Part shown: positions 18,576 to 57,644 of the stretch, piece by piece
Layout of the letters: each line of letters starts with the position of its first letter
How positions within the stretch are numbered: the first letter of the stretch is position 1
Assembly (NCBI RefSeq): GCF_028009165.1
Contig: NW_026611618.1
Span: 868,001-932,000 of the forward strand
Direction: 5' to 3'
Length of the DNA: 64,000 nt
Origin: Akanthomyces muscarius
Taxonomy: Eukaryota > Ascomycota > Sordariomycetes > Hypocreales > Cordycipitaceae
The notes under the pieces: model-generated
What the model saw: the letters and a program-made list of their open reading frames with translations, nothing else
What the model was told of the DNA's origin: nothing
The model's database searches: none
Translations under genes and position numbers: made by a program

Positions 18576-21266
18576 ATGGCTAGCGCCAACGTCAACCGCC
18601 CTACGAACGTCAAGGAGAAGGACGCGGATATCAACCGCAAGCTCCAGATCTACGGCATCTTCCGCGCCTTCAAGGCTGGCAAGGTCCCCTCGGTAAGCTA
18701 TATAACACCCCCAGGCAACGAAACCATCAATTGCTAACTGCCTCCACAGAACGACCAGATTGATGTCGCATTAAACAGCTTCCTGCAATCCGATGCTCTC
18801 ACCAAGCCCAACACCAAGCTCTCCGCCGACGGCAAGCTGCTCGTCGAGGACACCCGTGAGGTCATCAGACTTGCCAAGAACCTGCTCCTCTCCAAGAACG
18901 ACGGCAACCTCATTCAGGATTTCATTTGGCAGACTACCCAGTTTGACCCCAAGGCCGTTCAGGGCCCCAACGTTCCCGTCAGCAAGGATGCTGCCCAGAA
19001 GGACGGCGAGGAGGCTCTCCAAGGCCTAAGAACCCTCGGAACGCTGCTCATCACCAACGGGCAGTTCCGCAAGCTCCTCAAGGACTCCACCGTTCTGCTC
19101 CGTGATATGGCTGGTGACGCCGCTAGCAACGCTGCCGGTCGCATCCGCCCCGACGACGAGGACCTGTCTCAGCTGGACCAAGCTGCCGAGGACAACACCT
19201 GGCACGAGGCTCCCAAGTTCAGCAAGGAGGACCTTAAGAAGCAGGCCCAGGGCCTGTACAAGGGCGACGCCAAGAAGGATGCCCAGGACATCGCCGACAG
19301 CGCTAGATCTGCTGGTGCGCCCGCTTCTGGCGAGCCTAGGGATGCCAACGTCGCTGCCGGCCATAACGCCGCCAAGTCAACCCTCAAGGACAAGATCAAC
19401 AAGAATATCGATCCTGAGACGCAGGAGAACATTAAGGCAAAGAAGGAGGAGCAGCGCCGCAAGGCCAAGGACTACCTGAACAAGAAGATGCCTGCTGAGC
19501 GCAAGGACCAGATCATCTTCCGCCTTAAGAAGATGGTTATTGAGTGCCAGCAACACACCGACTACTCCCAGGCTGTCCAGAGCCTGCTCCGTCTTGCCCG
19601 CACCTATGGTGAGCATGGCCGCTCCGTGAGCAAGGAGTCAGGCGGGTCCGTTAACCAGGCCCGCAGCGGCCTTGCTGCCGCCGAGGCTGATCTTCGCACT
19701 TTGATTGAGCGCTTCGCCAACGGTACCTCCACCTCCAACCTCTGGAAGGCTATTGGCCAGATCTACCAGGATGCTCAGAAGGACAGTGAGCTCAAGGGCT
19801 GGTTCAAGAACATGGACCACTATGTCAACCGCCTTCTCCTCGAGCAGGGCTACGTCCTGGAGGAGCAATCTACCAAGGATTGGGATGCCCTCTACCAGCA
19901 GGGTCGCTACCTTCTGCGTGAGAAGTACAAGGCCCATACCGACAATGTCTTCGACGAGATTAAGTTTGTCGGCGACCAGTTCGACAAGGACCCTCAGAAC
20001 AAGCAGTTCGGCGCTGCTGTCCAGAAGCTGTTCAAGGACCTTGGCAATGGTTCTGATGGCAAGTCCGAGTTCAAGCCTCACCTCGCCAAGGATGTCTTTG
20101 ATGTCATCCTGCCTGCTGTCCTCCGTGACATTGCCTACATCCCCATTCCTCGTATTGAGTACTCTGATCCTGGCTTTGACGCTGTCATTGAGAATCTCAT
20201 TCTCGAGAGTGACAACTTCACGCCCAACGTCGCTGAGCTCGTCTCCAACAACAACTGGAAGTGGGGCCGTAAGAACATTACCAACCACAACCAGAACGTT
20301 ATCGACCTCAAGGTCTCTGGCATCCAGATGGATCTGCGCGATGTTAGCTACCACATCAAGCGCAAGTCTGGCTTTCCTAAGATCACTGACACTGGCGTCG
20401 CCGACATCCTGCTGCCGGGTGATGGCTTCTCTTTCCGCATGAAGGTCTCTACTGCCGGTAAGAGGGATTCTCAGAATTTCTTCAAGGTCGAGAAGGTCGA
20501 TGTCGACTTCAAGAGTCTTAATGTCAAGCTCAAGAAGTCCAAGTTCAAGGGCCTCTTTGCCATCTTCAAGCCCATCCTGCTCCGCGCTCTCCGCCCTGCG
20601 CTCCAGAAGGCTGTTGAGAAGGCCATCAAGGACAAGTGCAACGAGTTTGACCGCACCCTGTACGAGCTCAAGAAGGAGGCTGATGCTGCTGGCGAGAACG
20701 TTGGCGAGGACGGTACGAAGACCAACTACTTCAAGCGCTTCTACGACGCCGGCCAGAACCGCGCCCTCAAGGCGAAGCAGCAGAAGGAGAAGGTCAAGAA
20801 GGACATCCAAGACGAGAACAAGAAGGTCAACATTACTATGACCGATGATGATTCCATCTTCCCCGACCTCAAGTTGCCTGGCGGTGTTAGCTCCAAGGCC
20901 ACTGAGTACAAGCAGCTTGCTCTCAAGGGCGAGAAGTGGGAGAGCCCCGTCTTCTCCATTGGTAAGGCCAGCAAGAGCACGGACATTCCCTCTGCTCCTC
21001 AGATCGTTAACAAGACTCGCGGTGCAGGCAACAGTGCCGCACACGGAAACAACGGTCATGCTAGCGGAAATGGTCTCGCCACCGGTGGAAACAGTCTTGC
21101 TGCCAACACCGGACTTGCCAGCGGCAATGGCATTGCCAACGGCCAGGGCCTTCATGCCAACGGCAACGGCCTCCACGCCACCGGCAATGGTATTGCCAAC
21201 GGTAACGGCATCAAGAAGACTACTGCCCCGGCTCTTGATACTACCAACCCTGTTCCCCTCAACTAA
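18576..21266 (+). CDS. HAM1-like protein (HAM1_N and HAM1_C domains)
   Basis: Two exons (18576-18692, 18750-21266) give 877 aa. The intron has a GTAAGC donor, a GCTAAC branch and a CAG acceptor. The N-terminal two thirds match the fungal HAM1-like N-terminal family: a helical, Lys/Asp-rich region ('KEDLKKQAQGLYKGDAKKDAQ', about residues 170-220), then 'LPAVLRDIAYIPIPRIEYSDP', 'ESDNFTPNVAELVSNNNWKWG' and 'VSYHIKRKSGFPKITDTGVAD', a TULIP/BPI-like beta region thought to bind lipid. The HAM1-like C-terminal part follows ('FKPILLRALRPALQKAVEKAI'). The last ~65 residues before the end (about 797-860) are a Gly/Asn/His-rich set of short G-N-G repeats not needed for the fold. Codon bias is the strongest in the window, suggesting high expression. 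Proteins of this group are linked by homology to membrane and lipid functions; the precise role is unknown. Confidence 0.88.
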
Positions 21267-57494: not shown

Positions 57495-57637
57495 GGTAGC
57501 ATGCCAGAGTGGTTGTGAGTAGGCCCCGCCACCATCAGTCAGTTTGATGTACTAACATAGAATCAGAATGGGTGGGACTCGAATCCGACAGACATCCCAT
57601 GGCTTCGGCCGCGCAGGTTCAAATCCTGCTGCTATCG
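57495..57637 (+). tRNA. tRNA-Ser(CGA) with a 52-nt spliceosomal-type intron in the D-loop and a 10-nt anticodon-loop intron
   Basis: Acceptor stem GGTAGCA (57495-57501) pairs with TGCTATC (57630-57636), discriminator G73. T arm GCAGG-TTCAAAT-CCTGC and a class II variable arm (TGGCTTCGGCCGC) are perfect. The anticodon stem TGGGA/TCCCA encloses CTCGAA with anticodon CGA at 57580-57582, then a 10-nt intron at 57584-57593 in the canonical place after position 37. The D arm only forms if 57515-57566 is removed: the insert starts GTGAGT, has TACTAAC at 57550-57556 and ends CAG, and its excision gives D stem CCA/TGG with loop GAGTGGTTAA. The mature RNA would be 81 nt, normal for Ser. The A-box (TGCCAGAGTGG) lies just before the insert, the B-box (GGTTCAAATCC) is intact and a T7 Pol III terminator follows at 57638-57644. 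Confidence 0.85.
57515..57566 (+). other. mRNA-type intron inside the tRNA-Ser D-loop
   Basis: GTGAGT donor, TACTAAC branch with its A 11 bases before the CAG end, 52 nt long: every feature of this genome's protein-gene introns. It sits after G18-G19-T-T of the D-loop and before A-A. Confidence 0.8.
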
Positions 57638-57644
57638 TTTTTTT
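57638..57644 (+). terminator. Pol III terminator of tRNA-Ser
   Basis: T7 run directly after the discriminator base. Confidence 0.85.

Follow-up and report, generated by a model that had tools for sequence, protein, structure and literature searches.

Can a nuclear tRNA gene be interrupted by an intron of the mRNA type and still be a working gene? Introns of tRNA genes and spliceosomal introns are usually seen as separate systems served by separate machines. The question is raised by a tRNA-Ser(CGA) gene in the window (the whole 64,000-nt stretch of Akanthomyces muscarius DNA that was analysed), in which 52 nt interrupt the D-loop. The sequence data reported here make it very probable that this insert is a U2-type spliceosomal intron of a working nuclear tRNA gene, and that the gene is one of at least 22 of its kind in the fungus.

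Table 1. Coordinates of the tRNA-Ser(CGA) gene and its parts in the window.
Feature	Coordinates	Strand	Basis
tRNA-Ser(CGA) gene, G1 to discriminator base	57495..57637	+	sequence, ARAGORN
Exon 1 (5' acceptor strand, positions 8-9, 5' D-stem strand, D-loop to T20a)	57495..57514	+	
A box (TGCCAGAGTGG)	57502..57512	+	sequence, box consensus
GT-AG intron in the D-loop, 52 nt	57515..57566	+	
5' splice site, GTGAGT	57515..57520	+	
Branch site, TACTAAC	57550..57556	+	
3' splice site, CAG	57564..57566	+	
Exon 2 (remaining D-loop, 3' D-stem strand, anticodon arm to A37)	57567..57583	+	sequence, ARAGORN
Anticodon, CGA	57580..57582	+	ARAGORN
37/38 tRNA intron of the ordinary kind, 10 nt	57584..57593	+	ARAGORN
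Exon 3 (3' anticodon-stem strand, variable arm, T arm, 3' acceptor strand)	57594..57637	+	ARAGORN
B box (GGTTCAAATCC)	57616..57626	+	pattern search
Pol III terminator, T7	57638..57644	+	sequence, pattern search

The sequence-only reading had described a class II tRNA-Ser(CGA) that is complete apart from the insert, and this description was correct. All seven pairs of the acceptor stem are formed (57495-57501 with 57630-57636, one of them G-T), and the D, anticodon and T stems are fully paired (3/3, 5/5 and 5/5). The D-loop is interrupted after T20a, that is at the 20a/21 bond. The splice signals GTGAGT, TACTAAC and CAG noted earlier are present in the insert, with 11 nt from the branch A to the last G, and excision of exactly 57515-57566 restores a 3-bp D stem and the loop GAGTGGTTAA, as had been claimed. 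Assignment of the A box follows the consensus of that promoter element. The gene has the full cloverleaf, long variable arm, internal promoters and terminator of a functional tRNA-Ser.

A comparison of tRNA finder output with and without the 52 nt, proposed in the same reading, was made with ARAGORN. After excision ARAGORN identified tRNA-Ser(cga) with a mature length of 81 nt and, as expected, a separate 10-nt intron at 37/38. With the insert in place it reported no tRNA in the bacterial setting, Gly(ccc) when introns of up to 200 nt were allowed, and, when the limit was 60 nt, a distorted Ser(cga) whose intron measured 54 nt. No family reached its cut-off in an Rfam scan of the window, and the tRNA model scored 16.8 bits on the unexcised gene against a cut-off of 29. 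The 52-nt insert is not a canonical tRNA intron by position, since it lies in the D-loop and not at 37/38, where the 10-nt intron is found. Self-splicing introns of group I or II were also considered and rejected: 52 nt in this gene, and at most 107 nt in the set described below, fall short of the minimum size of such ribozymes, and no Rfam family was above cut-off.

Genes for tRNA in the genome that carries the window (36.2 Mb in 12 contigs) were located with the Rfam tRNA model, BLAST and patterns combining a B box with a T run, and the stretches obtained were parsed by script and by eye. The Rfam model placed 51 above cut-off, and the union of all approaches came to 111 distinct places, including the permuted gene discussed below. 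This inventory is possibly incomplete, because the model scored 63 of the 781 first-look candidates, genes of unusual form escape the patterns, and the permuted gene was not picked up by BLAST. The pattern GAGYGGTYGTRNGT occurred at nine places against 27 in a backward control; five of the nine are Ser genes, and at the other four (L110-L112 among them) the parser saw no tRNA. The pattern GTTCRANYCD..T-run occurred at 76 places against 91 in the control, and 20 of the regions were read. A tRNA-like parser match of 133 nt (L136, C6:2611093-2611225) was left out of the 111: its acceptor and T stems pair and a B box and T run are present, but the anticodon arm is unclear and the match was not convincing by eye. 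Two further loci were recorded in passing. In an Ala(TGC) gene (L105, C4:2650359-2650493) the 37/38 intron reaches about 63 nt, which is unusually long, and shows no GT-AG signals by eye, and a Met-like tRNA 3' end with a T run (L139/L160, C1:1695289), for which no 5' part was found in about 500 nt upstream, is probably a fragment.

A DNA search with the window gene revealed one further place, a tRNA-Ser(TGA) gene on contig C1 whose 51-nt insert occupies the same bond and carries GTAAGT, TACTAAC and CAG; the 37/38 introns of the two genes differ. Overall, the tRNA genes found with a GT-AG insert outside 37/38 number 22; they serve nine amino acids and fall into 13 kinds when the two Met tRNAs, initiator and elongator, are taken separately. 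By our own assignment in standard tRNA numbering, the inserts of Ser(CGA), Ser(TGA) (one gene each) and Ser(AGA) (three genes) are in the D-loop at 20a/21, so that all five Ser(NGA) genes found are interrupted at an identical bond. Three Ser(GCT) genes and one Thr(TGT) gene are split within the anticodon, at 35/36. The remaining inserts are at 33/34 in Lys(TTT) (one), 31/32 in Arg(TCT) (one) and 28/29 in Asn (three), at three further D-loop bonds in elongator Met (two), Leu(AAG) (two) and Pro(AGG) (one), and in the variable loop in Trp (two) and initiator Met (one). Several interrupted genes, that of the window included, also have canonical 37/38 introns, which differ from the inserts in position, length and signals.

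Excision at the exact ends gave the correct isotype by ARAGORN in 20 of the 22 genes; the two failures, Trp-2 and Met-e-1, are perhaps due to a retained 37/38 intron. The unspliced sequence already gave the correct isotype in eight of the 22, because inserts in or near the anticodon arm can pass as ordinary introns. Some of the interrupted genes lie close together (L097, C2:4011558-4012411; L051/L064, C3:3658226-3658619; L145/L146, C4:4047945-4048870), Ser(GCT) and Asn as inverted pairs and Trp in tandem, and in these pairs the intron bodies differ more than the exons.

Every one of the 22 inserts fits GT[AGT]NG[TC], followed by YTAAY and then AG. The 5' splice site is GTAAGT in ten, GTACGT in six and GTGAGT in two, with four other forms found once each. 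Insert lengths range from 51 to 107 nt, and 21 of them are within 51-65 nt. The branch A is 10-12 nt before the last G throughout, Trp-2 being counted at TCTAAC (11 nt) although a later TTAAC site, at 3 nt, also exists there. When each insert was shuffled 20,000 times, only four of 440,000 shuffles passed the same signal test; the test was written after the inserts had been seen, and the figure gives a scale, not an exact probability. Both this result and the number of genes, 22, speak against an origin of the signals by chance. For comparison, the window contains an mRNA intron of 57 nt in a HAM1-like gene (18693-18749; GTAAGC, GCTAAC, CAG), accepted as such because it joins the reading frame; it is built like the inserts. 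A first reading-frame scan for mRNA introns, run without a control, gave four candidates; in a second, counts with flanks of 120-150 nt did not improve on the control (13 vs 12, 8 vs 7), whereas those with flanks of 180-210 nt did (7 vs 2, 5 vs 1).

Comparison of paralogues, with any 37/38 intron still included in the exon sequence, revealed that the intron bodies have often diverged much further than the exons. Exon identity is 1.00 in the three Asn pairs, against body identities of 0.29, 0.31 and 0.75; it is 0.96 against 0.30 for Trp, 0.98 against 0.27 for Leu, 0.98-1.00 against 0.55-0.86 for Ser(GCT), 0.91-0.96 against 0.65-0.80 for Ser(AGA) and 0.77 against 0.36 for elongator Met. The exception is Ser(CGA)/Ser(TGA), with exons at 0.88, whole inserts 88% identical and bodies at 0.90, and this pair is by itself no demonstration of selection on the signals. 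The splice signals are kept in every pair compared, and the final 15-16 nt, which include the branch site, are often common to the copies (Ser(GCT), Met and two Asn). Extended GT-AG ends, a CTRAY-like branch site close to the AG and bodies that diverge while the signals stay are features of U2-type introns.

The same signals bear on the possibility that the inserts are non-canonical introns with a bulge-helix-bulge, removed by the tRNA splicing endonuclease. Endonuclease-type introns occupy many tRNA positions in archaea, Cyanidioschyzon and nucleomorphs, according to the account in PMC4090602, and the inserts of Ser(GCT) and Thr(TGT), at 35/36, are near 37/38. The inserts do not, however, show the structure (a central helix of 4 bp with 3-nt bulges): the full helix at the exact junction was found in one of the 22 genes, Ser(AGA)-2, and one of the four pairs can form in the window gene. 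Allowing shifts of up to 2 nt raised the count to three of 22, against 14% in shuffles. Among the introns of the ordinary kind that ARAGORN called in the genome, 23 of them distinct, eight had the helix, a weak control since eukaryotic enzymes tolerate relaxed motifs. Endonuclease cleavage also offers no reason why all 22 inserts should have GT-AG ends and a branch site, and we regard it as highly improbable.

Insert-free paralogues were found for two kinds, as two Pro(AGG) and two Leu(AAG) genes. The joined exons of the interrupted Pro gene are identical to the insert-free copy L068 over the first 36 nt, a stretch that spans the insertion site and reaches the 37/38 intron region. The insert-free Leu copies have one extra D-loop base beside the junction (GAGTATGGTT vs GAGTTGGTT), and for this reason the Leu insertion site is not the same letter for letter. 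BLAST was performed at E <=1 with joined-exon queries from 14 of the 22 genes, each kind being represented by one or two. The only contiguous matches were to Pro, Leu and initiator Met genes and to a related Thr gene (CGT). For Ser, Trp, Asn, elongator Met, Lys(TTT), Arg(TCT) and Thr(TGT) BLAST detected no uninterrupted gene of normal order, only one-sided pieces. The pattern CMGAGTGGTTAAKG, which describes uninterrupted class II D-loops, matched at six places, three of them Leu genes and the other three the Ser(GCT) genes, in which the interruption falls in the anticodon; CMGAGTGGTTAAKGG, a pattern incapable of matching Ser(AGA) or Ser(GCT), had no match.

Diverged copies can escape both the joined-exon BLAST and CMGAGTGGTTAAKG, and one Ser(CGA)-like gene did. 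It lies on the minus strand of contig C2 (L054, C2:3815661-3815746) and has no D-loop insert. Its 3' half comes first (3815746-3815703), followed by the 4 nt TGTA, the 5' half (3815698-3815661) and then TTTTCTTTTTTT. Pairing across the rearrangement is complete in the acceptor (7/7), anticodon (5/5), T (5/5) and D (3/3) stems. From this arrangement the locus looks like a circularly permuted tRNA-Ser(CGA) gene, and it may also supply tRNA-Ser(CGA). Permuted tRNA genes are named in algae and an archaeon (PMC4090602, PMC3978253). The presence of another Ser(CGA) gene in the genome, raised beforehand, jointly with a lack of mature reads, as a point against the interrupted one, was therefore borne out in part: an insert-free gene exists, but it is permuted, and no normally ordered uninterrupted Ser gene of any anticodon was found.

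The permuted gene matters for the view that the interrupted genes are pseudogenes with insertions, the real tRNAs coming from other genes, as it is a possible other source. Short insertions in the D and T arms of eukaryotic tRNA genes are, moreover, supposed to mark pseudogenes, as stated in PMC4090602. Against this stand the 22 genes themselves, with exons that are intact and often near-identical between copies while the introns have diverged, and the failure of BLAST and patterns to find an uninterrupted Ser, Trp, Asn or elongator Met gene of normal order. The pseudogene view is exceedingly improbable on these grounds.

Another idea is that introner-like mobile elements have lately spread into tRNA genes, splicing being a by-product. 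Several insertion sites are in use, paralogues differ in the presence of the insert, the final 15 nt are identical in the introns of Ser(AGA)-1 and Trp-1, and other fungi are known to have introner-like elements (PMC4457414). The window intron was compared with the genome and the other introns with each other only. With up to three mismatches allowed, the opening 22 nt of the window intron matched the Ser(CGA) and Ser(TGA) genes and no other place, and the idea that the insert has a mobile copy elsewhere was rejected on this result. BLAST among the 22 introns (E 0.01) linked different kinds only through Ser(CGA)-Ser(TGA) and the shared 15-nt end, which holds splice signals. Recent spread of such elements appears very unlikely, and it would be compatible with a spliceosomal intron, because it concerns origin and not removal.

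The reading of the insert as a spliceosomal intron of a working gene, already made from the letters of this gene, is supported by the 21 additional genes, the signals kept in diverged bodies and the insert-free Pro and Leu paralogues. These features and the anatomy of the gene were observed directly in the DNA; from them we infer transcription, splicing, the order of the steps and a dependence of the fungus on the spliceosome. Pol III would transcribe the window gene from its A and B boxes and end at the T run. The spliceosome would read GTGAGT, TACTAAC and CAG and take out the 52 nt in the nucleus, and this removal would restore the D arm and with it the tRNA body. The tRNA endonuclease and ligase would next remove the 10-nt intron at 37/38, a step placed after the spliceosome because the endonuclease measures from the folded tRNA body. 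The other genes would follow the same course, the spliceosome acting first and the endonuclease afterwards where a 37/38 intron exists.

Introns of the mRNA type are known from some genes for structural RNAs. The gene for U2 snRNA, one of them, is not transcribed by Pol III. Its mRNA-type intron in Rhodotorula hasegawae (Takahashi et al. 1993) and the spliceosomal introns of ascomycete rDNA (Bhattacharya et al. 2000), both cited here from their titles in PMC2586383, resemble the present case in lying in non-coding genes, and differ from it in that the products are an snRNA and rRNA, not tRNA. The precedent cited for a spliceosome acting on a Pol III transcript, the mRNA-type intron of the fission yeast U6 snRNA gene, holds according to PMC8917221. 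Fission yeast U6 is an snRNA gene, whereas here 22 tRNA genes of 13 kinds are interrupted and the two U6 genes above cut-off (L058, L059), which by eye differ from each other at several bases, are both intron-free; not every Pol III gene is therefore affected. As in the fungus, tRNA genes of archaea, Cyanidioschyzon and nucleomorphs have introns in the D arm, the anticodon arm and elsewhere, but these are of bulge-helix-bulge type or very short and are removed by the endonuclease or by unknown means, and GT-AG ends and a branch site are absent from the description given (PMC4090602). The sequence-only reading knew of no described tRNA of this type; no spliceosomal intron in a tRNA gene was described in the titles and abstract openings of the literature matches listed, which does not prove its absence in print. 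Scans outside the genome gave a single match among prokaryote genomes, in a bacterial assembly, and a single one among viral contigs; by eye, neither is a tRNA. Protein similarity makes the Cordycipitaceae the probable family of the fungus: a flavoprotein encoded in the window shares 80% identity with a protein of Beauveria bassiana (over 97%), 77% with a Cordyceps javanica protein (over 98%) and 86% with a protein of Akanthomyces lecanii (over 78%).

The intron and the gene each belong to a known kind; the novelty lies in their combination and its extent, and the case is a genome-wide class, not a single odd gene. Judged from the genome, the making of tRNA seems to depend on the spliceosome in a fungus with many interrupted nuclear tRNA genes. 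It is likely that this fungus, and perhaps its whole lineage, has shifted much of its tRNA maturation to the spliceosome: tRNA-Ser from the genes of normal order, as well as tRNAs for Trp, Asn and elongator Met, would need it before they could decode, the anticodons of Ser(GCT) and Thr(TGT) are split, and gains at no fewer than nine sites, with insert-free paralogues, would constitute a live system for intron gain in Pol III genes. In genomes of this kind, essential tRNA genes can be overlooked or misread by the standard finders. If this picture is true, the fission yeast U6 case would be extended to a whole gene class and intron gain could be followed against insert-free sister genes. To decode its Ser, Trp, Asn and internal Met codons, the fungus would then rely on spliceosomal processing of Pol III transcripts, a point of coupling between mRNA splicing and translation capacity.
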